A DNA stretch of 52,375 bases from Desulfobacteraceae bacterium (lineage in GTDB: Bacteria; Desulfobacterota; Desulfobacteria; Desulfobacterales; JAABSP01), in NCBI GenBank assembly GCA_011390345.1, contig JAABSP010000038.1:1-52375 (forward strand). Reading direction: 5' to 3'. This document shows, piece by piece, positions 28,701 to 52,375 of this stretch (position 1 is its first letter; each line of letters starts with the position of its first letter). The position numbers and the translations under genes were made by a program. The notes under the pieces were generated by a model, which ran no database searches, was not told the DNA's origin, and saw only the letters and a program-made list of their open reading frames with translations.

Positions 28701-29846
28701 ATGCGAAGAATCATTTTGATGGCAACAGCAGGCATTTTCGTTCTGATGGTTTCATCACTGGCCTTTGCCGCAGACAAAGAGCCCTACAAGGTCGGATGCG
28801 TCTTTGCCGTCACCGGAAAGGCCTCCTGGCTCGGCGAGCCCCAGAAGAACACGGCCGAGATGATCGCAAAGCAGATCAATGACGCGGGCGGGATCGACGG
28901 CCACATGCTGGAACTCTACATCGAGGATACCCAGGGGGAGAACAACCGGGCAAAACAGGCCGTCAAGAAGCTCGTCCACAGCCATGATGTGGTCGCGATC
29001 ATCGGCCCTTCCAGAAGCGGAACCAGCAAGATCCTGATCCCGGATATGCAGAGAGCCAAGATCCCCATGATCTCCTGCGCGGCCGCGGAGAGCATCGTCA
29101 ATCCGGTCAATCCGTGGGTCTTCAAGGTCGCGCCCAACGACAGCGATGCGGTCCGGAAGATATATGAGCATATGAACAAGAAGGGCATCGAGAAGATCGG
29201 GATCATCACCGGAACGACCGGTTTCGGCAACGCGGGCCGGAACCAGCTCAAGGAGCTTGCCGGAGAATACAAGATCAATATTGCTGCCGATGAGACCTAC
29301 GCACCCGGCGACACCGATATGACGGCCCAGCTCGTCAACATCAAAAACGCAGGAGCACAGGCCCTGATCAACTGGTCCATCGTGCCTGCCCAGTCCATCG
29401 TTCCCCAGAACATGAAGCAGCTCAAGCTCGATATTCCCCTATACCAGAGCCACGGCTTTGCAAACGTCAAGTATGCAGAGGCCGCGGGAGAGGCCGCGGA
29501 AGGGCTCATCTTTCCGGCCAGCCGGATCATGGCGGTCGATACACTCTCCGAAGATCATCCCCAGTATAATGTGGTCAAGGAATACAAGGATAATTACGAG
29601 AAGAAGTACAACGACCATGTGAGCACCTTCGGGGGCCATGCCTACGATTCCCTCCACCTTGTGGTCAATGCCCTCAAAGCAGTGGGACCGGACCCGGAAA
29701 AGATCCGCGAATATCTGGAGACCGCAAATTTCGTGGGCACGGCCGGCGTCTTCAAGTTCACTCCTGAAGATCACTGCGGGCTGGACAAGGAGGCTTTTGC
29801 CCTGCTCACGGTGAAAGACGGCAAATTCGTGGTGCTGGGAGAATAA
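28701..29846 (+). CDS. livJ: Liv-type ABC transporter substrate-binding protein
   Basis: A 381-residue periplasmic-binding protein of the Leu/Ile/Val family. The signal peptide ends near SLAFAADKEP. The body opens YKVGCVFAVTGKASWLGEP, with the usual two-lobe pattern and ADETYAPGDTDMTAQL near the hinge. It captures the ligand in the periplasm for LivHMGF. First gene of the transporter operon, with AGGAG before the ATG. The nearby ACT and PaaK-like genes fit a branched-chain or aromatic amino acid or acid ligand. Confidence 0.92.
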   Translation: MRRIILMATAGIFVLMVSSLAFAADKEPYKVGCVFAVTGKASWLGEPQKNTAEMIAKQINDAGGIDGHMLELYIEDTQGENNRAKQAVKKLVHSHDVVAIIGPSRSGTSKILIPDMQRAKIPMISCAAAESIVNPVNPWVFKVAPNDSDAVRKIYEHMNKKGIEKIGIITGTTGFGNAGRNQLKELAGEYKINIAADETYAPGDTDMTAQLVNIKNAGAQALINWSIVPAQSIVPQNMKQLKLDIPLYQSHGFANVKYAEAAGEAAEGLIFPASRIMAVDTLSEDHPQYNVVKEYKDNYEKKYNDHVSTFGGHAYDSLHLVVNALKAVGPDPEKIREYLETANFVGTAGVFKFTPEDHCGLDKEAFALLTVKDGKFVVLGE

Positions 29847-29858
29847 GCGGAACCGGTG

Positions 29859-30764
29859 ATGGATCAGGTCGGCAGCGGTTTTTCGGATTTTCTGCAGTTC
29901 CTCTTCATGGGGCTGCAACGGGGGAGCATCTACGCGCTGGTGGGAATGGGATACAACATCATCTACAATTCCACCGGCGTGATCAACTTTGCACAGGGGG
30001 AGTTCGTGGTCTTCGGGGGGCTAATGATGGTGACGCTCACCATGACCGCGAACCTCTCCATCCCCCTTGCCTTTCTGCTCACGGTGCTTTTCGTGACACT
30101 GATCGGGGTGCTGATGGAGCGCTTCACCATCAAGCCGGTGAAGAATCCGAACGTGCTGCGCCTGATCATCATCACTATTGCAGTTTCCATCCTGTTAAAG
30201 GGCATGGCCATGTGCTTCTGGGGCAAGGGCTCCCATTACATGCGCCATTTCACCGGGTCGGACCCCATCGAGGTTTTCGGGGCCACCCTCCTGCCCCAGA
30301 CCCTCTGGATCATCGGCATCCTGGCCGTGGTGGTGATCGGGTTTGTCCTCTTCTTCAACCATACCATGATCGGTAAGAGCATGCGGGCCTGCGCGATCAA
30401 CCGGGATGCGGCCCGCCTTGCCGGGATTAACGACCGGAACATGGTGATGCTCTCCTTTGCCCTTTCGGCCGGGATCGGCGCGATCGCGGGGATCATCATC
30501 ACCCCCATCATCCAGATGGACTACACCCGGGGGGCGCTGCTGGGGCTGAAGGGGTTCGGCGCGGCCGTGGTGGGGGGACTGGGCAACAGCTTCGGGGCCG
30601 TGGCCGCGGGGATGCTCTTCGGAATCATGGAGGCGATGGCCGCGGGGTACATCTCCTCCCATTATATGGATGCGGTCGCGCTGCTGATACTGCTCATAGT
30701 CCTCTTCATCCGGCCCAGCGGCCTCTTCGGTAGCGCAGATGCCGCTCGTCTGAGGGAGTTTTAA
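29859..30764 (+). CDS. livH: Branched-chain amino acid ABC transporter permease LivH
   Basis: A 301-residue inner-membrane permease with about eight hydrophobic helices. The start region GSIYALVGMGYNIIYNSTG and VINFAQGEFVVFGG are hallmarks of LivH, and AARLAGINDRNMVMLSFALS is the cytoplasmic loop that contacts the ATPases. ATG 29859 is preferred over the GTG at 29856. It lies 12 bases after livJ. Confidence 0.94.
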   Translation: MDQVGSGFSDFLQFLFMGLQRGSIYALVGMGYNIIYNSTGVINFAQGEFVVFGGLMMVTLTMTANLSIPLAFLLTVLFVTLIGVLMERFTIKPVKNPNVLRLIIITIAVSILLKGMAMCFWGKGSHYMRHFTGSDPIEVFGATLLPQTLWIIGILAVVVIGFVLFFNHTMIGKSMRACAINRDAARLAGINDRNMVMLSFALSAGIGAIAGIIITPIIQMDYTRGALLGLKGFGAAVVGGLGNSFGAVAAGMLFGIMEAMAAGYISSHYMDAVALLILLIVLFIRPSGLFGSADAARLREF

Positions 30765-30768
30765 AGGG

Positions 30769-31770
30769 ATGGAACGGCGGGATTATATCGGTATCGGGGT
30801 GCTGCTGGCGATGGTCATCGCGGTTCCCTTTCTGGTGGACAATCCGTACTACCTCGGGGTCCTCGTCTTCACCGCTCTCAACTGCCTCACCTGCATCGGG
30901 CTGAGCCTGCTCATGGGATATGCGGGGCAGATCTCCCTGGGGCACGCCGCGTTTATCGCGCTGGGGGCATATTCTTCGGCGCTTTTGACCACACTTGCGG
31001 GATGGTCTCCCTGGGCCGCGATGGGCGCTGGTGCAGTGATATCAGCGGTAGTTGCGGTGATTGTGGGGGTTCCCTCCCTGCGGCTCAAGGGACATTACCT
31101 CGCGATGGCCACCCTCGGATTCAGCGCAATCGTTCATATTGTCGCGATCGCGGCCGTGGATATCACCGGCGGCCCCCAGGGGATCGGCGGGATTCCCTAT
31201 CTCTCCTTCGGCGATCTGGTCCTCGATACGGACATCCGATTCTACTATTTCAGTTGGGCCGTGGTGATCATCGGGCTGATTCTCGCGCTCAATCTCATTC
31301 ATTCCCGCATGGGCAGAGGATTGCGGGCCATCCACGGCAGCGAGGATGCGGCCTGCGCGGCCGGAGTCCATACCGCGCTTTACAAAATCCAGATCTTCAT
31401 CATCAGCGCGGTCTACGCTTCGATCTCGGGAAGCCTCTACGCCTCCTACGCCACCTATATCGACCCGGGGCCCTTCGATGTGATGCACTCAGTGCTGCTG
31501 GTGACGATGGTGGCCGTGGGCGGGATGCACCGGCTCTGGGGGGCCGTCATCGGCGCGGTGCTCCTCTCCCTGCTGCCGGAAATCCTCTCCTCCTTCTCCG
31601 GATACTTTCAGATGATCGGCCTCGACTACAGCCAGGACTACGACATACTTATCTACGGCGGGATTCTGCTGGCCATCATGCTCTTTCTGCCGGAAGGGCT
31701 CTTTTCGGGGGGCAGAAGTCTTTTCCGGTATCTCTACCAGAAGTTTTCCCCCGCGGAAGAGGAGGGATGA
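30769..31770 (+). CDS. livM: Branched-chain amino acid ABC transporter permease LivM
   Basis: The 333-residue second permease, with about nine to ten membrane helices. CIGLSLLMGYAGQISLGHAA is the LivM signature, and GRGLRAIHGSEDAACAAGV is the ATPase-contact loop. Its stop overlaps the livG start. Confidence 0.94.
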   Translation: MERRDYIGIGVLLAMVIAVPFLVDNPYYLGVLVFTALNCLTCIGLSLLMGYAGQISLGHAAFIALGAYSSALLTTLAGWSPWAAMGAGAVISAVVAVIVGVPSLRLKGHYLAMATLGFSAIVHIVAIAAVDITGGPQGIGGIPYLSFGDLVLDTDIRFYYFSWAVVIIGLILALNLIHSRMGRGLRAIHGSEDAACAAGVHTALYKIQIFIISAVYASISGSLYASYATYIDPGPFDVMHSVLLVTMVAVGGMHRLWGAVIGAVLLSLLPEILSSFSGYFQMIGLDYSQDYDILIYGGILLAIMLFLPEGLFSGGRSLFRYLYQKFSPAEEEG

Positions 31771-32534
31771 TGGCCCAATACCCTCTTCTCAGGATCTCAG
31801 GGCTGCGGAAGGTCTTCGGCGGCGTGATCGCTGTGGACGACCTCGACTTCGATGCCGATACCGGCTCCATCACCGCGCTCATCGGCCCCAACGGCGCGGG
31901 AAAGACAACCGTCTTCAACATGATCACGGGATTTCTTCCCCCCACGGACGGGGAGATCCTTTTTGTGGAGAGAAAGATCGAAAAGCTCCCCTCCCACCGG
32001 GTGGCCCGGATGGGCGTTGCCCGGACATTCCAGCATGTGCAGGTCTTTTCACAGATGAGCGTGCTGGAGAACGTGATGGTGGGACGACATACCCGATCGA
32101 AGACGGGTCTCTTCCTCTCCCTGCTGACCCCGCCCTTCTGGCGTCCTGAAGAGCGGCGGATCGAGGAGAAGGCGCGGGAGTGGCTCTCCTTTGTGGGGAT
32201 GGAAGGGATTGCGGATCGACCCGCGGGAAGCCTGCCCCTGGGGAACCAGCGGATGCTGGAAGTGGCCCGGGCATTGGCCGCGGAGCCGAAACTGCTGCTG
32301 CTGGACGAGCCCGCATCGGGCCTGAACGCCCGGGAGACTCTTGCCATGGGAGAGCTGATCGGCCGAATTCGGGAGATGGGAATTACGGTGCTGCTGGTGG
32401 AACATGATATGGAGCTGGTGATGGAGATATCGGATCAGGTGGTGGTGGTCAACTTCGGCCGGCGGATAGCGGCCGGAACCCCTGCCGAGGTGCAGCTCGA
32501 CCCGGACGTGATCGCGGCCTATCTGGGGGAATGA
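31767..32534 (+). CDS. livG: Branched-chain amino acid ABC transporter ATPase LivG
   Basis: A 255-residue ATPase subunit. Walker A is GPNGAGKTT, the Q-loop region is RTFQHVQVF, and Walker B is LLLLDEPASGLN with the switch His in VEHDMELV. The signature is LPLGNQRMLEVARAL in place of LSGGQ; this variation is normal for LivG. The start overlaps the livM stop (ATGATG at 31767). The frame is open far upstream inside livM, but that is a shadow. Confidence 0.94.
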   Translation: MMAQYPLLRISGLRKVFGGVIAVDDLDFDADTGSITALIGPNGAGKTTVFNMITGFLPPTDGEILFVERKIEKLPSHRVARMGVARTFQHVQVFSQMSVLENVMVGRHTRSKTGLFLSLLTPPFWRPEERRIEEKAREWLSFVGMEGIADRPAGSLPLGNQRMLEVARALAAEPKLLLLDEPASGLNARETLAMGELIGRIREMGITVLLVEHDMELVMEISDQVVVVNFGRRIAAGTPAEVQLDPDVIAAYLGE

Positions 32535-32535
32535 C

Positions 32536-33273
<738 letters not shown>

Positions 33274-42864: not shown

Positions 42865-43152
42865 AAAATAATTTCTCCTTGGAATGCCCTTTCCCGGGCA
42901 TGCTCTTCCCCTGTAAATTCTCGCAGTTCCCCTCCCCTACTCCGGCCTGTCCGGAAAGGAAGACCCTCCATGTATTGTATAAAAGTTCATAAGGAATTCA
43001 GAAGAAGAATTAGCGTGAGATTTGATGCAAAAGTAGGGTTTCCACTTATTCCGTTATCAATCTAAGCTTTATAAAATACTTAATATTTTGCAAGATTACC
43101 TTGGTGTTCGACTTGCACCTTCACTTACCAGTCGAAAAGGATGTGGTTCTCG
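42865..43152 (+). other. AT-rich gap before the chemoreceptor operon
   Basis: A small hairpin, TGCCC (42885-42889) with GGGCA (42896-42900), lies after aat but lacks a T-run. From about 42970 to 43110 the DNA is clearly AT-rich and probably holds the promoter of the chemoreceptor operon, with TATAAAATAC near 43070. No clear -35 or sigma-28 motif was found, and no gene. Confidence 0.4.
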
Positions 43153-44745
43153 ATGAAGTCTATTCACCTGTCCGTGTTCATGAAAATATGGCTGAGCATC
43201 AGTATTCTGATCATCGGCTATCTTTTTTCCATTGGTGTGGTCCATTTTGCCGGCATGCATATGAAAAATAAGATGCATGGGATTTCAGATGGCCTGTTTC
43301 CCGCGGCGAGTTATACACAGAAGGCGCTGAGCAATTTTGAAAAGCAGATGGGCTTTTATGAGGATGCTGTTGTACTGGGGGAGACCGATAAAATTGATCA
43401 GGCCGAAACGCCATACCAGGAAGTGATCAACGCTCTGGAGGCTTTTGCGGCCCTGCCGGAACTCCCTTTGAACCGAATCCGGTACGCCAAGAATCTGCGC
43501 CGTGAAATCAAGGAATATACCCGCAAGGCCTCGTCGATGTATCAGGAGATGGCTTCGGGAAACATGACGGACGCGCCTGCCGAAGCAGCCAAGAAGATGG
43601 CCCAGGGGCGAACACGGCTGGAAGGCCGGCTCTCGTATCTGGCCGAGCATATTTCAAAGGATCTGGAGAAGAGCATCAACTCCACATTGGCATTCTTCAA
43701 CCGGCAGCAGTTCTTCAATTTCATCGTCTTTGCCGTGGTTCTTCTGCTTTCCCTGGGGCTGGTCTGGCAGGTTACCCGGAACCAGATCGTTGCCCCGATC
43801 GAGCGGGCAATCTACCAGTTGAGACAGGTGAGCCAGCGGGTGGCCGACACCTCCGGCAGCGTCTCCGACACCAGCCAATCTCTGGCCAGAGATACCTCGG
43901 AACAGGCATCCAGTCTCCAGCAGACCTCCGCATCCATGGCAGAATTGGCCGAAATGACCAGGCGCAATGCCGAAAATGCCCAGGAGTCCAAAGAGATGAC
44001 GACCGAGGCCGGGCAGATCGTGGAACAGGTCAACAGACACATGTCGGAGCTGACCGGAGCCATCCAGGAGATCACCCGGTCCAGCCAGGAGACAGCCAAG
44101 ATCATCAAACTCATTGAGGAGATCGCGTTTCAGACCAACCTGCTGGCCCTGAATGCTGCTGTGGAGGCGGCACGGGCCGGCCAGTCGGGCCGTGGCTTCT
44201 CGGTGGTGGCCGAGGAGGTCCGAAGCCTGGCCAGCCGGGTCTCCCAGGCGGCCGAGAAGACCACCAAACTCATCACGGATACTGTAAAGGCAGTGGAAAA
44301 CGGGGATCGACTGGCCAGTGCCACAGCCGAGGCATTTCAGCAGAACATCCGGATTTCCAATAAGATCGGAAATCTGTCAGAGGAGATTCTGGCATCTTCT
44401 TTGGAGCAGTCCAAGGGGCTCGATCAGACAACCCAATCTGTTGCGCAGATCGACACAGTTGTCCAGTCCAATACCCTCAGGGCCGAAGCCTCAGCCGAAG
44501 CAGCACAGGAATTGTCGCAGCAGACCGATATCATGGCCCATATCGTGGACCAACTCTCTGCGCTGGTCAAAGGAAAGCATCAACGGCAAACCGCTGCTCC
44601 GGAACCCGCGCCTCCCTTTTATATCGAAGATCCTGCGGGAAAAAAGAGACAAGGCCTCACCCACAGGATTTCGCGGTTTTTTTCAAAGGGAGAATTCCAA
44701 CAAAGAAGAACTGCTGTTACCCCGATGAAAAGGAGCAAGATATGA
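43153..44745 (+). CDS. Methyl-accepting chemotaxis protein
   Basis: A 530-residue transmembrane chemoreceptor. TM1 (about residues 9-31) and TM2 (about 190-210) enclose a periplasmic domain of about 155 residues, predicted to be helical, with many Lys and Glu and no known-fold motif seen. A HAMP-like linker follows, then the long cytoplasmic coiled coil with the signalling tip [19 protein letters not shown] and [15 protein letters not shown]. No CheR pentapeptide at the C-terminus. ATG 43153 is chosen over ATG 43141 because AAAGGA lies 11 bases before it. It overlaps the next gene (ATGA), a periplasmic binding protein. Confidence 0.93.
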
Positions 44746-45188
44746 ACCGTTTCCTGTCTGTTATCCTGTCGATTTTCTCTCTGATCCTCCTGATCCCGGA
44801 TTTTACCCCCTGCGCAGGGGCTCAGGAGGTGAAGATCGTGGCCCATCCTGATGTTCCCCGTTACGCGCTCAGCCAGGATGAGATTCAGCAGATCTTTCTG
44901 GGAAGAAATACCCAGTGGGATGAGAACAAGGAGAAGATCCACTTCATCACGCTGGAGGGGGGCGATGTTCATGAACAGTTTGTCCGCAGATTTGTGGGCA
45001 AAACCTCTTCTCAATACGGCAATTACTGGCGGAAAATGGTCTTCACCGGAAAGGGGAGAGCCCCCAAGTCTCTGAAAGACCCCGAGGATGTCGTGGCCTA
45101 TGTCGCAAATACCCGAGGAGCCATTGGGTATGTGCCGTCGGAGACCGATACCAAAGATGTTGGGATAATTTCGGTAACACCCCAATAG
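44742..45188 (+). CDS. Small periplasmic binding protein (PstS-like, single lobe)
   Basis: A 148-residue exported protein. The signal peptide (1 to about 27, ending CAGAQ) is followed by [20 protein letters not shown] and [11 protein letters not shown]. The C-terminus carries [16 protein letters not shown], which is typical of the PBP-like domain family related to phosphate-binding PstS. At about 120 mature residues it is roughly half the usual two-lobe size. It overlaps the receptor gene and precedes a porin gene, so it may present a ligand, perhaps an anion, to the receptor. The ligand is not known. Confidence 0.82.
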
Positions 45189-45212
45189 CATTTACCCAGA
45201 GGAGGTTTTTTC

Positions 45213-46583
45213 ATGACCCGACAAATCTTTTTCATGTGCGTTTTCATCATCACGGCCCTGGCTGGCGGGGCCTGGGCCTCTGAATTGTCATCCCTGGACC
45301 TCGACATCCACGGATTTGTCTCCCAGGGCTATCTGAAGAGCGAGGGCAACAACTTTCTGACCGCAGATACCAATGACGGCTCTTTTCAGTTCAACGAGGT
45401 GGGGATCAATCTCAACAAGCGGTTGACCGATTCCCTCCATGTGGGTGTGCAGCTCCTGGCCCGGGATCAGGGGGTGATCGGAAACAACGAGGTGGAGATC
45501 GACTGGGCCTACGGCAATTACCGGTGGCGGGACTGGCTCGGGGTTCGGGCCGGCATCATGCGGATTCCACTGGGGCTGTACAACGAGACCCGGGATCTCG
45601 ATTTTCTGCGCACCAGCATCCTGCTCCCCCAAAGTGTTTACAACGAGAACCTCCGGGACTACTTCAGCCGCATTCGGGGCATCGGCCTGTACGGCGATAT
45701 TCCCATGAACAATGTCGGCTCTTTAGGATATCAACTGATGGTGGGCACGGTCGATATCGACCCGGACGGCGGCGTTGCCCGATCCTCCGAGACCTCGGGC
45801 GTCATGGAGTTTGTCGATTCGGATGTGGGAACCGTTTACAACGGAAGTCTTCAGTGGCATACGCCTCTGGATGGCCTCAGCACCGGGATCACCTACTTTT
45901 ACAACAGCGATGCCGAAGCCCGGGCGAATCTCACCATTCCCCAGGATTCGGGGATGCCGTCGGGGGTCGGACAGGAGCCGGACATCTCCACCGGCCCTGA
46001 CACTGCTGGCCCCGACGCACCTTCCGATATGCCGCCAGGATCTGAAATGCCGCCGGGAATAGGCCAGGATAGTGGAATGCCGAGGCGTCTGGGCCAGCCG
46101 AGCAGCGTGGAGATCCCCTCTGAAATGACCGTGATCGACGAACTGGATGAGTTTGAAGTCTATGTCCTCTCCGCGGAGTATACCTGGAACGACCTGGTCA
46201 TTGCGGCCGAGTATATGAAGATGAACCGGAAGAGCCATCTCAAGGGATTTCCCATGGAATTTGAACTCGATATGGTCGGATACTATCTGAGCGCGGCCTA
46301 CCGGTTCACAGACTGGTTCGAGCTGGGATCATACTATTCCATCTATTATGGGGACGAAGATGACAAAGACGGCGATGATCTCGAAGCCCGGGGGAAGCCC
46401 GATTACCGGGCCTGGCTAAAGGATTTCACCGTGACCACCCGCTTCGATATCAATCCTTACTGGAACTTCAAGCTGGAGGGGCATCTGATGGACGGGGCTG
46501 CCCTGGTCATGGCTCAGGACAACCCGGACGGCTTTGATGAACACTGGTATCTGCTGGCCGCAAAGGTGAGCTTTTACTTTTAA
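45213..46583 (+). CDS. Outer-membrane beta-barrel porin-like protein
   Basis: A 456-residue protein with a signal peptide ending at GGAWAS and alternating strands from LDLDIHGFVSQGYLKSEGN to the C-terminal LLAAKVSFYF. The terminal aromatic is what the BAM complex recognises. The N-terminal part (FNEVGINLNKRLTDSLHVGV, GVRAGIMRIPLGLYNETRD) resembles putative porins found in Desulfobacterota and Gammaproteobacteria. A segment of about 60 residues at 250-310, rich in Gly, Pro, Ser and Met with repeats such as SGMPSGVGQEP and PPGIGQDSGMP, is probably an exposed loop. It follows the binding protein by 24 bases and likely lets the sensed solute enter. Confidence 0.85.
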   Translation: MTRQIFFMCVFIITALAGGAWASELSSLDLDIHGFVSQGYLKSEGNNFLTADTNDGSFQFNEVGINLNKRLTDSLHVGVQLLARDQGVIGNNEVEIDWAYGNYRWRDWLGVRAGIMRIPLGLYNETRDLDFLRTSILLPQSVYNENLRDYFSRIRGIGLYGDIPMNNVGSLGYQLMVGTVDIDPDGGVARSSETSGVMEFVDSDVGTVYNGSLQWHTPLDGLSTGITYFYNSDAEARANLTIPQDSGMPSGVGQEPDISTGPDTAGPDAPSDMPPGSEMPPGIGQDSGMPRRLGQPSSVEIPSEMTVIDELDEFEVYVLSAEYTWNDLVIAAEYMKMNRKSHLKGFPMEFELDMVGYYLSAAYRFTDWFELGSYYSIYYGDEDDKDGDDLEARGKPDYRAWLKDFTVTTRFDINPYWNFKLEGHLMDGAALVMAQDNPDGFDEHWYLLAAKVSFYF

Positions 46584-46628: not shown

Positions 46629-46683
46629 GTTCAGCTCCAGTTCAGTTCCAGTTCAGTTCCAGTTCAGCTCCAGTTCAGCTCGA
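46629..46683. repeat. 11-bp tandem repeat at the 3' end of pglZ
   Basis: GTTCAGYTCCA is repeated almost five times. The pglZ stop codon (TCA on the plus strand, 46664-46666) lies inside the fourth unit and the last few codons of pglZ come from the fifth. Eleven bases is not a multiple of three, but each unit carries a potential stop, so copy changes after the stop would not alter the protein. Confidence 0.85.
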
Positions 46684-49435
46684 ACTGCTGCCGCAACAGA
46701 TCGATGTCGAGGGAGATGATTCCTGCGGCTTCGTCTTTGGTTAAAATTGGATAGCCCTCTATGTTGAGCAGCCGCTGCGAGGCGTCTATCCATTGTTTCA
46801 GCCGGAATTCGGGGATGTCAAGCTCCCGGGAGAGGGTCTGGGGAGTGATTCTTCCCCCTTGCCGAACCAGGATCTTTGTGATTTTCAGGATGATTTCGTC
46901 ATCGGGAATGGTGCTGCCTGAGATGGCTTTCTGCTGCTGATAGACCGGGGAATCCTTCAGACGGCCAAGCCATTCCTGGGGCCCGGCTTGGGCCGGCTTT
47001 TGAGATTTTGCCGTTTTTTCGAAGAGGGGCAATTGGCCTTTGGAAGGCGGCTCCGGCGCGAAGGACGTAAAGGACTCAAAGGACGAAAAGGACGTTTGCC
47101 GGATGGATGGTGGATGGGGTGGTTCCTCCCACCAGTCGGGAATGTGGCGATGGCGTTCCCGCCAGCCCTGGGGGATGGGGCCTCCGGGGGAGAGCAGCGC
47201 GATGGGGACCAGCATCTCCTGGGGGGTGAGGCCCCCGTGGTAGCCGTTCTTTTTGACGCTGTACCGGTACTTTTCGGACCAGAGAGCGATCAGGCCCGCT
47301 TGGGGAGATGCCATGACGCGGCTGCCGGTAATGTGCAGCTCGCCTTGGCCGGCCGGTTCTTTGGCTGCCGGACGCCACCTCTCTCCTTCGCCGCCGGACT
47401 TGAGCGCGGTTCCCCACTCCGACACATGGCCGTGGTCGCTGATGAGCAGCACCGCGCGGCCTGCGGCACGAGCCTCGTATAGGAGCGCGGACAGGGGGCG
47501 GATGAAATCAAGGGTCCACCGGGGATCGGTCTGGTCCCCCTTTTTGAGATGGTCGTCCACCGCATTGAGGACCACCCCCACCGCACGAAGGCTCTTGGTT
47601 CCCAGGGCATTCCGGATCTCCTCGGAGAGGCTGCCGTCTTTGGCATCCGCGACTGCGATCTTGTGGAAGAGCTTCGGGGGGGCCGAACTGCCCGACGCGG
47701 CCTTCAGTGCCGGATGGGCCGAAAAGTTCTTTGCCTCCTCCCGGCTCTCCCCTTCCGCCAGGCGGCCCGTGAAGAAGCTGGTCCGGGAATATCGGGTTAC
47801 GGATGGGATGGCTGCGATGACCGGGCCGATCTCGGGGCCGATGACCGGTCCGATCTCCGGTCCGGTCTCCGATCCGGTCTCCGGACCGGGGGCCGGAACC
47901 AGCTCGGCCCATTCCCGCGCGGTGATGCTCTCCAGCAGCTCCTGAAAGACCGCGTTGCTCATGCCGTCCATGAGGAGGATCAGCATCGGAACTTGGGGCA
48001 GAAGGGGGGAGACGATCCTTTCCAGAACCGATTCGATGGGCAGGGCCGCATCTCCTGCAGAACCGGCTATTGTCCAGTCCCGGAGGAGTTCGGCAAACCG
48101 CTGGTTCTCCTGATCCCGCAGGCCGGCTGCGGCCTCCCCCAGCCGGCCGTAGGCGAGGGAGAGGGCTTTTAAGGGCTCGGCCGCGCGGATGCGGTCCCGG
48201 GCCCAGTCCACGAAGCCGCCGTCCCGGGCATAGGCCGTTGCCGCTTCCCTGAAATCGCGGGGTACGGATGTTTTGCCCGATCGGTTCGGGCTCTTTTTCT
48301 CCAGCCAGCGGAGAAGGCGGGCTGCCATGATGATCCTTTCCATCCTCGGGGAGCTGGGTTCTCTGCCCATTTCGTGGGAAAAGATACCGGCCTTGGCATC
48401 GAAGAGGTCGTCTCCGGCCCGGATCGGGGTTCTGGAGAGCGCATTTTCCAGGGCCCGGGCAAAGCGGATCAGGCGCTGATCAAAACCGTGGGGGGAGACA
48501 GGGCTGAGATGCGCGAAATCGGATGCGCCGATCTTCTCCAGCACGGCATCGGAGCGCTTCAGCCAGGCATGGCGGGCTTTATGGTCCGGAAAACCGGTCC
48601 GGATCAGCTCGGCCGCGGCCATGTGCCACTGCCGGGCCTGATGGGCAGGGATTTCAGGATTGCCGGTGAGCTGCTCCAGACGGCCCGCGGCCCGGTCCAG
48701 GTTTCCGTCCCCTGAAGCCGGATCTCCGTAAATCACGCCCAGGGCAAGGCCGGCAGGCAGGGCCAGGGGCTCAGGGGTTGCGTGGACGCAGTTGAGGATG
48801 GCCTCGGCCGCGGGGCCTGCGGTTCGAACGATCCAGTCGGCCGCGGCCCTTCGGAAAGGTTCGGATGCGGCCCCCCAGCGTCGGACATCGGCTTCATCCG
48901 CGGACCATTTCAGCAGCGATACGAGATCCGGAAGCCCGGTCTCCATGCCCAGATATCCCTTCAGCAGGATCTCCCAGACCGTCTCCGCATCAAGTACCCG
49001 GTTGGGAACCGGGGGATATCCTGACACGGGCACAAGTTCCATGAGCATCTCCGAGATCCAACTGTGGGCCGTGACCCGGGGATCGATCCGCCGGGCCCCG
49101 AAGAGCCATCCCACGATGTGCCACGGGTCCAGGGGGAAGAGCCTGCGGCCGGCCAGCCGGACCCGGATGTCCTCCCCCAGTTGGGATTCCCCCAGAGGGG
49201 TGATGAGCACCATTGTGGTCCCCGGTTCCGGAGGCCGGCAGAGGGCCATGCGGAACTGGATCGGCGCATCGCACTGGCGGATGCAGACGCGGCCTTCTCC
49301 CTCTTCGATGATCTCCTCTCCGGTCCAGGGGCCCCGGGATCGGATACCTATAAACCGGGCCTCGGGCCGCTTTTCCCGAACCGCGGCCACCTGCGCTCGG
49401 ATCTGGCCCAAAGTCGGCGTCAGGGAGGCTGTCAT
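46664..49435 (-). CDS. pglZ: BREX PglZ, alkaline-phosphatase-superfamily protein
   Basis: A 923-residue PglZ of BREX type 2 style. The N-terminal half is helical and variable. The phosphatase-like domain begins with LILLMDGMSNAVFQELLESI (metal-binding Asp), continues with AIPSVTRYSRTSFFTGRL (nucleophile region) and has LLISDHGHVSEWG (metal-binding DHGH). The PglZ-specific YHGGLTPQEMLVPIALL closes the domain. The C-terminal part (from about residue 800) has a linker and a winged-helix-like end. Six tetrapeptide repeats precede the nucleophile region. PglZ is an invariant BREX component that blocks phage replication together with PglX and BrxC/PglY. It overlaps pglY by ATGA. Confidence 0.88.
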   Translation of the reverse strand: MTASLTPTLGQIRAQVAAVREKRPEARFIGIRSRGPWTGEEIIEEGEGRVCIRQCDAPIQFRMALCRPPEPGTTMVLITPLGESQLGEDIRVRLAGRRLFPLDPWHIVGWLFGARRIDPRVTAHSWISEMLMELVPVSGYPPVPNRVLDAETVWEILLKGYLGMETGLPDLVSLLKWSADEADVRRWGAASEPFRRAAADWIVRTAGPAAEAILNCVHATPEPLALPAGLALGVIYGDPASGDGNLDRAAGRLEQLTGNPEIPAHQARQWHMAAAELIRTGFPDHKARHAWLKRSDAVLEKIGASDFAHLSPVSPHGFDQRLIRFARALENALSRTPIRAGDDLFDAKAGIFSHEMGREPSSPRMERIIMAARLLRWLEKKSPNRSGKTSVPRDFREAATAYARDGGFVDWARDRIRAAEPLKALSLAYGRLGEAAAGLRDQENQRFAELLRDWTIAGSAGDAALPIESVLERIVSPLLPQVPMLILLMDGMSNAVFQELLESITAREWAELVPAPGPETGSETGPEIGPVIGPEIGPVIAAIPSVTRYSRTSFFTGRLAEGESREEAKNFSAHPALKAASGSSAPPKLFHKIAVADAKDGSLSEEIRNALGTKSLRAVGVVLNAVDDHLKKGDQTDPRWTLDFIRPLSALLYEARAAGRAVLLISDHGHVSEWGTALKSGGEGERWRPAAKEPAGQGELHITGSRVMASPQAGLIALWSEKYRYSVKKNGYHGGLTPQEMLVPIALLSPGGPIPQGWRERHRHIPDWWEEPPHPPSIRQTSFSSFESFTSFAPEPPSKGQLPLFEKTAKSQKPAQAGPQEWLGRLKDSPVYQQQKAISGSTIPDDEIILKITKILVRQGGRITPQTLSRELDIPEFRLKQWIDASQRLLNIEGYPILTKDEAAGIISLDIDLLRQQFELNWS
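47818..47889 (-). repeat. Six 12-bp in-frame repeats inside pglZ
   Basis: Six consecutive 12-base units encode GPET, GSET, GPEI, GPVI, GPEI and GPVI, ending three residues before the PSVTRYSRTSFF segment. Two 24-base super-units (47818-47841 and 47842-47865) differ at only three bases, so duplication was recent. Unit number could change by slippage without shifting the frame. Confidence 0.85.
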
Positions 49436-52375
49436 TCTGTTGATGTCCCGGTTGATTTACGGGGTGATGCAGGGGGTGATGTACGGGTTGCTGCGTCAGA
49501 AGCCTGCCGGATCTCCCAGCGCAGATGCACTGTAACCCGCTGCCCCGGCTCCAGCTTCTCCTCCAGCCGGGCCAGCAGTGCCCTTGCCGCGTCCGGTGTC
49601 AGGTCATCCTGGGACCCGCTTTCGGCAATCTGATCTGTTGGGCCGGCCGGGGGGAGCGGCGGATCGGTCTTTCCGGGCTCTTTCTCCTTTGGCTTTTCGG
49701 GCCGTGGCGGTTTCCGGGTCAGGATGGAGATGGCCCGGGTCTGGGCGCTCTTCAGGGTCCCCGCCAGTCCTATGGCATGTTCGTCCGCGGTCAGGGCCTG
49801 GATCACTTCCCTTCGGATCTCTGCGATCTCCGCGCCGGGGTCCTTTCCGGCCGGATCGAAGATCACCCACTCCGCGGCATCCATCGCGGCCCCGAGATGG
49901 GCCGCGCCTTTGATGCAGGTTCCCATGGCCGGGGCCGAGGTCTGTGCCCGGGCCTCGGCAATGGCCCGGATGAGCGGCTCCTCCCCCTGGGTTTTGGAGA
50001 TGCTTTCCAGCAGAGTCCGGGAGGCCCCGGCCGTCTGCATCCGGGGCGCGGTCTCCGCCTCGATGGAAAACTGTTTCAGCCGGTCCCGCAGTTGCCGGTG
50101 CAGAGCATTGACCGGGCTCTGGTATTCAGATGCCTTCTCCCGGATGCGCTGGGCCAGCAGCGACACATTCGCGGCATTGAGCAGGGGGGAGACCGTGAGG
50201 TCGAAGAGGGTTTGGGCCCGCTCCCGCGCGGTCTGCCATACCGGGGCAGGGGGCAGGGTCTGCTCCCGCAGTTCCATATCTCCCTTTAAACCGCCCAGGG
50301 TCGGCGCAAAGGGGACCCCTTGAAAATAGAAGCTCCGGTTGGTCATCTCCGCATAGACCAGAATCAGCAGGTCCCCGGCCTCCAAAGGGAGTCCCATGGG
50401 CCGGGGCTGGTCCATCCACTCCCGCAGTTGGCGCACTGTAAGGGTTCCCCCGGCCTCGGCCGCCTTTCGGTTGAAGTGGCTTTTCCAGTGGTGGCCCAGC
50501 ACGAAATGGGTCTCGGCCATCTCCCCCAGCAGCAGTGGGTTTGCGATCTGGCGCACCACCTTTCGAACCCCGGTCTCCACCTGGACCCGGCCATCCGGGG
50601 TGCGGGCCGCTTCTATGGCCACATCCAGCACCTTTTTCAGGTGTGTTGTCTTGATTTCGGCCTCGAAATGGGGGTGGGCCGGATACTGGTGTTCCAGGGC
50701 CTGGCCCAGCAGATCTTCCATCGCGGTCTTCATGTCGGGCGCTGCCGGGGGCCGGGGGTCGAATCCGGGCAGGAGGGACTGGAAGTGATCTGTCAGCTCG
50801 TGCGCGGTGTCGATCGCTTCGGTGTTCGCGGAATCGAGGCCAAAGGCCGCGCACAGGTCGTTTTTCACCCGCTGGCGGAGCATGCTCCGCTGGTTCTCCA
50901 GCAGGGTCTTGGCCGATAACTGGTCCTGGGGCGAGAGGTGAGCTGCATATCCCCGGTACCGCTCTCCGGTCAGGATGTGCTCCAGGATTACCAGGGTTCC
51001 GAGGTTTTTCTTCGCGGCCCGGCTGAAAAAGGAGGGGACCCAGGCCAGGGTCCGGAACCCCGAGGGATTGTTCTCCAGAAGGGTCTGGAGTCTGCTGATG
51101 TCGTCCTTGGGGCCGTGATTGGGCTCGTCGAACGGATAGTCGATGATCAGCTTCCATGCCTCGCCCCTGGGGGGAAAGTCGCCTTCCTTCATGGCCCGGA
51201 TGTTGCCGAACCGGATTTCGCACATTCGCCGGGTGTCGCGCCACAGAAAGGGGTGTTCGATAAAAAATTCGTCCCGGTTTTCGATGCCGAGCTGGTCAAA
51301 GAGCATCTCCCGGATGTATCGGATCTTGTTCCCCTCGTTATCCTCCCGCCGGGCCTGGTCGATGATGCTTTCGGTCTCCACGCCGGTCAACTGCACCGAA
51401 AGGGTCGGGTTCGATTCCTCCCCCACCTTGATCTCGCCGATCTCCGCGGCCCACCTCTTCACCCGCTGGGCCACGAGCTGCCCCTCCCGTCCCGGGATGG
51501 GCGAGGTGATGGTGCCGTGGTTGAGCGCGGAGAGGCGGGATGCGTTCAGGGCCCGCAGAGCCTCCACCCCCGGGGTGAGTGCGCTCAGCAGCAGGGTCTT
51601 GATGAGCCGGTCGTCGTTGGTAAAGGCTTTGCGGGCCGGGTCGTCGAATGGGAGGGCCTCCAGTTCCTCCCGGCGCTGTTTGTGCTGGCGCTCCAGAAGG
51701 GGCAGGAGTTTCTGATGATAGAGGCGCTTGGCATTGTCGAACTGAATCCGCATCTCCTCATTGAATGCCTCTTCTCCGTGCGCGATCACGTCAAAGAGAT
51801 CCCCCACCGGGACCAGATCCCCCAGTTGCAGGGTATCCCGCTGGTTCACCAGAAGCTGCAGCATCACCTTGAGCGCGGTCCGCTCCCGCTGCAGCAGGCT
51901 GGAGACCGCGATCAGGGTCTGCACCAGCGCGGGGCTGAAGGGGTAGATCTGCCGGAACATGGCCCGGTCCCCTTGGCTGGTGAGGAGGGTGTGGAGGACC
52001 TCCTCCCGGACTTTTGCGGTTCGCTCGAATGCTTCGTCAATGGCCTTTGCGGCCCCTTTGTCTTTTGGGGTGAGAATCCGCTTCTGTGCGATCACGGGGA
52101 GGTTCCGGTCTTCCAGGGTGATGGTGTCGAAGCGGCCCTCCCAGTGGCCCAGGATGTCGCTGAAGTTGAGGGCCGCAGCCCCGCTGGCCTCTTTGCCCAC
52201 CAGGTCCCGGAGGTCCCGCTGCCGGGCCACGAAGCTGATGATGGGCAGGGGGCGGTCCGCGCTCTGGGCCTCCACGAGCTTGGCCAGCTTCTGCCCCTCC
52301 AACTGCACGAATCCGAGATCCGCGGAATGGCTGGCCAGCCACAGGATCAGCTCGTCCAGAAAGAGGATCACGCCG
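49432..52375 (-). CDS. pglY: BREX PglY ATPase (N-terminus beyond the window)
   Basis: About 980 residues of the C-terminal part of PglY/BrxC-like ATPase; the gene runs off the right edge. The first residues seen, GVILFLDELILWLASH, are the Walker B region, so Walker A lies outside. The body (ISFVARQRDLRDLVG, FSPALVQTLIAVSSLLQRER) follows the DUF6079/PglY pattern, and the tail is a Pro/Lys-rich linker (PRPEKPKEKEPGKTD) plus an acidic C-terminus. PglY is the large P-loop component of BREX type 2. The order pglY-pglZ with ATGA overlap is as in that type. pglX and pglW are expected beyond the window. Confidence 0.85.
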   Translation of the reverse strand, partial: GVILFLDELILWLASHSADLGFVQLEGQKLAKLVEAQSADRPLPIISFVARQRDLRDLVGKEASGAAALNFSDILGHWEGRFDTITLEDRNLPVIAQKRILTPKDKGAAKAIDEAFERTAKVREEVLHTLLTSQGDRAMFRQIYPFSPALVQTLIAVSSLLQRERTALKVMLQLLVNQRDTLQLGDLVPVGDLFDVIAHGEEAFNEEMRIQFDNAKRLYHQKLLPLLERQHKQRREELEALPFDDPARKAFTNDDRLIKTLLLSALTPGVEALRALNASRLSALNHGTITSPIPGREGQLVAQRVKRWAAEIGEIKVGEESNPTLSVQLTGVETESIIDQARREDNEGNKIRYIREMLFDQLGIENRDEFFIEHPFLWRDTRRMCEIRFGNIRAMKEGDFPPRGEAWKLIIDYPFDEPNHGPKDDISRLQTLLENNPSGFRTLAWVPSFFSRAAKKNLGTLVILEHILTGERYRGYAAHLSPQDQLSAKTLLENQRSMLRQRVKNDLCAAFGLDSANTEAIDTAHELTDHFQSLLPGFDPRPPAAPDMKTAMEDLLGQALEHQYPAHPHFEAEIKTTHLKKVLDVAIEAARTPDGRVQVETGVRKVVRQIANPLLLGEMAETHFVLGHHWKSHFNRKAAEAGGTLTVRQLREWMDQPRPMGLPLEAGDLLILVYAEMTNRSFYFQGVPFAPTLGGLKGDMELREQTLPPAPVWQTARERAQTLFDLTVSPLLNAANVSLLAQRIREKASEYQSPVNALHRQLRDRLKQFSIEAETAPRMQTAGASRTLLESISKTQGEEPLIRAIAEARAQTSAPAMGTCIKGAAHLGAAMDAAEWVIFDPAGKDPGAEIAEIRREVIQALTADEHAIGLAGTLKSAQTRAISILTRKPPRPEKPKEKEPGKTDPPLPPAGPTDQIAESGSQDDLTPDAARALLARLEEKLEPGQRVTVHLRWEIRQASDAATRTSPPASPRKSTGTSTE

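Follow-up and report, generated by a model that had tools for sequence, protein, structure and literature searches.

The chemoreceptor operon

The window analysed here is a stretch of 52,375 nucleotides from a Desulfobacteraceae bacterium (assembly GCA_011390345.1, contig JAABSP010000038.1), in which three forward-strand genes, each with its own ribosome-binding site, form a tight operon encoding a chemoreceptor (methyl-accepting chemotaxis protein, MCP), a half-size periplasmic binding protein (HPBP) and an outer-membrane porin (Table 1). The overlap of the first two genes and the short gap before the third were already part of the original prediction and are as described: the MCP stop TGA (44743-44745) and the HPBP ATG (44742-44744) share a 4-base ATGA overlap, and 24 bases separate the HPBP stop (45186-45188) from the porin ATG at 45213, ahead of which stands AGGAGG. 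The MCP ATG at 43153 sits 11 bases past AAAAGGA (43135-43141) and is the likelier start, because the alternative ATG in the same frame, at 43141, lies partly within that ribosome-binding site.

Table 1. Features of the MCP-HPBP-porin operon, with positions in the window.
Feature	Position	Strand	Basis or remark
Chemoreceptor (MCP), 530 aa	43153-44745	+	PF00015 match; start from spacing to AAAAGGA
MCP first membrane helix, predicted periplasmic four-helix-bundle sensor and second membrane helix	43159-43791	+	AlphaFold2 model
MCP signalling domain	43993-44460	+	PF00015
AAGGAG, HPBP ribosome-binding site, within the 3' end of the MCP gene	44730-44735	+	Same bases precede the HPBP start in L028, the closest relative found
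Half-size periplasmic binding protein (HPBP), 148 aa	44742-45188	+	Signal peptide by reading
Outer-membrane beta-barrel porin, 456 aa, C-terminal F	45213-46583	+	Signal peptide and terminal F by reading

The signalling domain of the receptor is recognised by Pfam with 132.6 bits against a cut-off of 34.6 (E 1.7e-38), and no HAMP domain was found in the protein by the same means. The source genome can probably make use of a chemoreceptor, since it holds 19 CheW-domain matches, some of them in frames of sufficient length for CheA, and 46 MCP-domain matches that include pieces of a single gene. The HPBP of the window is the only one found in that genome. The operon contains no permease or ATPase gene, and in this sense the claim that no transporter is present holds; the ABC transporter at 28701-33273 belongs to another gene group, outside the operon. 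A scan for promoters and terminators returned nothing above shuffled sequence.

A binding protein of one lobe

The binding protein had been described as roughly one lobe in size, and both profile and model comparisons agree with this. In Pfam, HPBP gives a match to PBP_like_2 that stays below threshold (E 1.4e-4, 22.2 bits against a gathering value of 27, profile positions 94-187 of 267), and a profile built from 26 relatives matches the middle segment of the PstS structures 1twy and 4exl (E ~1e-10). An AlphaFold2 model of residues 28-148 (83-row alignment; pLDDT 95.4, pTM 0.85) has phosphate-binding proteins as its 38 best rows in VIA-align, all aligned over the contiguous lobe. The model superimposes on 4lat with Z 15.8 (1.9 A over 106 residues) and on residues 77-212 of E. 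coli PstS (9k3x) with Z 11.7 (2.3 A over 110), and LysR effector domains rank after the phosphate-binding proteins (Z <=8.6). The mature protein, at 121 residues, covers the contiguous lobe only, one lobe of the two that make up PstS. As judged from profile and predicted fold, HPBP is a single domain equivalent to the contiguous lobe of PstS, with which it shares ancestry.

The residues by which PstS holds phosphate, which we take to be the R...SGT residues of this lobe, have been lost. Among 123 HPBP representatives with less than 80% identity, the arginine column has Leu in 63 cases and Gln in 31, SGT is likewise not preserved, and the HPBP of the window itself is without the R...SGT residues. 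The reduced size is general: profile searches located half-size proteins at 52 places in 39 of 395 genomes of the same phylum, and the 299 Pseudomonadota genomes gave 84 places, spread over 43 of them. All 52 places score more strongly (weakest E 3.2e-14, in G174, whose frame of 282, lengthened by a reading that overlaps it upstream, was counted as half-size) than the presumed PstS homologues in the same 395 genomes (frames of 273-438 aa, E 4.5e-12 to 9.1e-9). The usual public name of the family, carried by most annotated plasmid matches, is 'phosphate ABC transporter substrate-binding protein', which is probably misleading because the family has lost the phosphate residues.

Five genomes (G395, G526, G403, G415 and G694) encode 5 to 7 half-size proteins each, which suggests paralogous modules with different cues or outputs. 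Apparent fusions of HPBP to a receptor (G694, frames of 577-708 aa) turned out to be overlapping readings of porin genes.

Porin and half-size protein as the constant unit

The neighbourhoods of 142 HPBP places were surveyed: the 52 from the same phylum, 64 of the 84 from Pseudomonadota (20 were left out), 18 in 17 named contigs that include near relatives within the Desulfobacteraceae, and 8 from 8 of 19 plasmid matches. At 132 of them a same-strand porin of one family stands no more than 400 nt away (49 of 52, 62 of 64, 13 of 18 and 8 of 8 in the four samples, respectively). Conversely, all except 5 of the 137 porin family members in these loci adjoin an HPBP. Because the profile for the porins had itself been extended iteratively with these loci, starting from five seeds (the porin of the window and four from plasmids), this count is a test of family membership and not an independent one. 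Ten places are without a porin, among them L034, L038 and L044 at contig ends and one L029 place that comes first in a tandem pair.

A signalling gene was found within 600 nt, on either strand, at 95 of the 142 places (same phylum 41/52, Pseudomonadota 45/64, named contigs 4/18, plasmids 5/8). The neighbour is an MCP at 34, a histidine kinase at 31, a GGDEF/EAL protein of cyclic di-GMP (c-di-GMP) metabolism at 28, and a kinase together with a GGDEF protein at 2. The same script, with its reach extended by 1250 nt to compensate for the absent porin, found a porin at 0 and a signalling gene at 6 of 20 loci of full-length homologues from the same phylum, while arbitrary stretches of the same genomes gave 0/20 and 1/20. 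After thinning to the 123 HPBPs with less than 80% identity, the porin is present at 115 and a signalling gene at 84. Two further plasmid records, from Vibrio (L163) and Photobacterium (L164) and both outside the 142, carry a hybrid kinase with HPBP and porin. The constant unit is thus the porin with the half-size protein, and the third gene varies. Co-location of the original trio survives the survey as far as the pair is concerned; the chemoreceptor is one of several partners.

Since the pair and its link to signalling genes recur in two phyla, above the controls, sensing is a better reading than uptake, as had been proposed. HPBP could instead be an uptake accessory that passes a solute to a transporter encoded elsewhere, the receptor being linked because the same solute attracts the cell. 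The ancestry of the protein among periplasmic binding proteins and its public name would agree with this; the operon without permease or ATPase, the lone contiguous lobe and the signalling genes at 95 places speak against it, and we regard it as improbable.

Some loci depart from the common arrangement. In L055 (5829-12303), tandem copies place three porins, together with two half-size proteins that hardly differ from each other, ahead of one MCP. On an Alteromonas plasmid (L073, 5902-12306) the pair stands by a type IV CRISPR (csf) locus, with no receptor. In L029, L030 and L031 the pair, again without receptor, is grouped with a radical-SAM protein and an APH-type kinase, as checked with Pfam for L029 and by similar frames for the other two.

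The porin of the window has no Pfam match. Within its family, Porin_4 was recognised in 10 of 27 members and Porin_O_P in 6 (E <= 0.01), and the final residue is aromatic in 109 of the 120 members of 330-480 aa (F in 106). The family profile, built on 27 rows, is closest to Porin P (OprP, 2o4v; E 9.4e-5). This resemblance, together with the homology of HPBP to PstS and the activation of the chemoreceptor CtpL by PstS, as given in excerpts of PMC6321045, would fit phosphate taxis of the CtpL-PstS kind. However, HPBP is half of PstS and has lost the R and SGT residues, and no pst or pho gene was recognised by reading adjoining the operon. Phosphate is an unlikely ligand of the window system, and phosphate sensing, rated low for the loss of the motif, is in our judgement very improbable as an explanation of the operon.

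Exchange of outputs and sensor domains

Mapped on a tree of the 84 thinned HPBPs with signalling partners, output type requires 15 changes (minimum possible 2, mean of shuffled labels 40.1), and well-supported branches force at least 3 changes for MCPs, at least 5 for kinases and at least 4 for c-di-GMP proteins. The sensor domains vary as well. The closest relative found, from a metagenome-assembled Desulfobacteraceae genome (L028, 4115-6849), has the same three genes with the same overlaps. Its HPBP is 65.5% and its porin 73.6% identical (the latter over 129 aa) to those of the window, and its MCP is 53% identical from window residue 192 onward. Its sensor is a dCache_1 domain (E 1.2e-28), which BLAST does not match to the window sensor. 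This replacement of a sensor within a conserved operon is our sharpest single observation. Among the signalling partners outside the bundle family, dCache_1 occurs in 3 of 9 further MCPs and in 8 of 32 kinases, and dCache_3 in 8 of 24 c-di-GMP proteins. Outputs and sensor domains are exchanged behind the porin-HPBP pair. HAMP domains were found in 8 of the 9 MCP partners whose sensor is not a bundle, unlike the MCP of the window.

The sensor of the window receptor

The sensor half of the receptor had been said to match no known motif. It is indeed without a Pfam match, including any to 4HB_MCP_1 or TarH; its predicted fold is not new. The AlphaFold2 model (27-row alignment, pLDDT 92.6) is all helical and predicts a four-helix bundle between two membrane helices, with known structural neighbours, and the idea of a new sensor fold was dropped. 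In Foldseek the top neighbours are a kinase sensor (4k0d), Vc1313, PcaY and Tar, and in VIA-align the first is LytS from XylFII-LytS complexes (5xsd, Z 14.7, 2.4 A over 120; 5xsj, Z 13.7), followed by PcaY (13.6), McpN (12.8), QseE (12.2) and TorS from TorS-TorT (11.8). Tsr is a further structural neighbour. A binding protein or a partner in the outer membrane acts on several of these sensors. Since bundles match easily, we treat these neighbours of the model as a lead only.

A sensor profile grown over five rounds on the 95 signalling partners matched the window sensor and 29 others nearly end to end. These 30 proteins were kept from 39 rows after dropping three second matches inside MCPs and six partial matches (L162, L138, L116, L045, L046 and L047). 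They comprise 23 MCPs, 6 GGDEF proteins and 1 hybrid kinase, the relatives being 9-23% identical to the window sensor, and Pfam recognises TarH in 3 and 4HB_MCP_1 in 2 of them (E <= 0.01). Beyond the partners, these loci contain no further match to the profile, and the control file gave a single one, the L163 kinase, itself a partner.

Among the 299 Pseudomonadota genomes, the profile gave 19 places at E <= 1e-25, a cut chosen after the list had been inspected. Twelve stand beside an HPBP, and since 11 of these are seeds of the alignment, only the 8 non-seed matches are informative. One of the 8 is beside an HPBP, on the opposite strand; six are in genomes with an HPBP elsewhere and one in a genome without. 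Counted by genome, HPBP is present in 5 of 6, compared with 43 of 299 overall, with the limit that two of the six (G395 and G616) had already supplied HPBP or sensor seeds. Weaker matches only (E 4e-22 to 1e-10) were found in 44 genomes, 14 with and 30 without HPBP; these matches look like general four-helix-bundle sensors.

The bundle could itself bind the chemoattractant, as in PcaY, Vc1313 or Tar, with HPBP and porin helping the cue to cross or acting on another protein. Fold neighbours solved with small ligands, according to their entry titles, and the Cache domain at the sensor position of L028 would be in keeping with this. It leaves HPBP and porin beside kinases and GGDEF proteins without explanation, and we consider it unlikely.

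Relation to known sensing systems

The nearest described system is VpvABC of Vibrio cholerae, comprising the porin VpvA, the periplasmic binding protein VpvB and the diguanylate cyclase VpvC (PMC12456836, PMC8754643). In PMC12456836, the porin is predicted to import an unknown signal that VpvB and VpvC sense, and vpvAB, present without vpvC in many Gamma- and Betaproteobacteria, is put forward as a sensing unit that may be conserved. By word search, the paper mentions neither histidine kinases nor chemoreceptors, and the word chemotaxis is confined to one figure legend and one reference. Compared by description and layout, VpvABC resembles the window trio in joining a porin, a binding protein and a membrane signalling protein, and differs from it in output, in gene order (MCP-HPBP-porin in the window) and in phylum. 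With an MCP in place of the diguanylate cyclase, the window operon is a variant on a VpvAB-type pair and not a VpvABC operon. The same HPBP profile detects the protein in 39 genomes of a set of 61 that we take for the genus Vibrio. All of the 30 loci examined there contain the porin; 12 have the porin-HPBP-GGDEF layout of Vpv, with a split GGDEF reading in L223 and L234, and L213 has an MCP.

It is established that binding proteins control chemoreceptors, kinases and c-di-GMP enzymes over several sensor types (PMC6321045, PMC9602780, both in excerpt). In XylFII-LytS, TorT-TorS and LuxP-LuxQ the binding protein acts on the sensor domain (PMC6321045), as we propose here. The LytS and TorS structures align with the model of the window sensor, and the output of all three systems is a kinase, unlike the MCP of the window. 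To our knowledge, their binding proteins have two lobes and no porin partner. In CtpL-PstS and the E. coli chemoreceptors that work with sugar- or dipeptide-binding proteins, a chemoreceptor is activated by a binding protein, as described in the same source. PstS shares its ancestry with HPBP, which is half of it, has lost the phosphate residues and is seen with no pst genes alongside. The binding proteins of the CtpL-PstS and E. coli systems are of full size and also serve a transporter.

The window trio is probably a chemotaxis-wired variant of the VpvAB-type unit of porin and binding protein, a kind already described but little studied. The original interpretation is partly supported. That the porin imports and the binding protein senses has already been proposed in print for VpvABC. 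New here are the one-lobe identity of the binding protein, its lost phosphate site and its presence in a second phylum; chemoreceptor and kinase outputs that are about as frequent as c-di-GMP enzymes; and one sensor family common to three outputs, with sensor exchange within one operon. No chemoreceptor or kinase version was found in the open-access literature, most subscription journals lying outside that search.

Several results weigh against this interpretation. No recognised signalling gene is found at 47 of the 142 places, and only 4 of the 18 places in named contigs have one, and 6 of the 20 loci of full-length homologues have such a neighbour as well. The HPBP tree was built on 125 columns and leaves 39 of its 81 inner branches open. 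The helical-bundle matches are weak, with every Foldseek E above 0.01 and Z values below ~13 common for bundles. The sensor swap in L028 implies that a specific interface between HPBP and sensor is not kept between nearest relatives.

Possible mechanism

In the mechanism we propose, the dedicated barrel would bring or hold an extracellular cue at the outer membrane, and the one-lobe PstS-like protein would register it in the periplasm, whether by itself, in dimeric form or through contact with the barrel. It could then act on the periplasmic four-helix bundle of the receptor, and the MCP would alter CheA activity and hence swimming. All four steps, the contact between HPBP and receptor included, are inferred by analogy with other receptors activated by binding proteins and with the VpvABC proposal. 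A bolder reading, which we hold to be less likely than not, is that HPBP binds no solute and is a recycled PstS lobe turned into a trans-periplasmic relay from a barrel receptor to the adjoining signalling protein, with outputs and sensors swapped repeatedly in at least two phyla.

A different role for the lobe, as a trans-envelope adaptor, would have it bind no small ligand, dock on the periplasmic face of the barrel and report occupancy or envelope state to the receptor through protein contact. The kept lobe is the contiguous one, whereas many type II binding proteins have the bulk of their ligand residues in the other, discontinuous lobe (PMC10601554, in excerpt). The phosphate residues of the kept lobe are lost, the pairing with the porin (132/142) is tighter than that with any receptor type, and the model of the sensor can be aligned with QseE (9m08, Z 12.2), whose structure was determined in complex with QseG, a lipoprotein of the outer membrane. 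However, QseG is a lipoprotein and not a barrel, and the conserved FTGKG..PP region of HPBP could equally be a ligand site. We hold this adaptor role to be conceivable but doubtful, much as the relay itself.

If the relay were correct, a fixed front end would serve exchangeable outputs in taxis, c-di-GMP signalling and phosphorelay. On the main reading, a gene publicly named for phosphate transport becomes the fixed element of a sensing module that can be plugged into chemotaxis, c-di-GMP or two-component signalling; if this is right, any ligand or contact identified for one member can be tested in all the others. HPBP also offers a natural one-lobe binding protein for study, and its module with the porin bears on the roles of VpvA and VpvB ahead of VpvC.

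Surroundings of the operon

The transporter group mentioned above is of the branched-chain type, lies ~10 kb upstream as a separate gene group, has its own full-size binding protein and is followed by a gene for an AMP-binding enzyme. Upstream of the operon, on the same strand, are genes that we take, from reading, to be clpA-like and aat-like. Directly downstream, on the reverse strand and running off the end of the window, 46664-52371 presumably encodes the BREX phage-defence genes pglZ and brxC.

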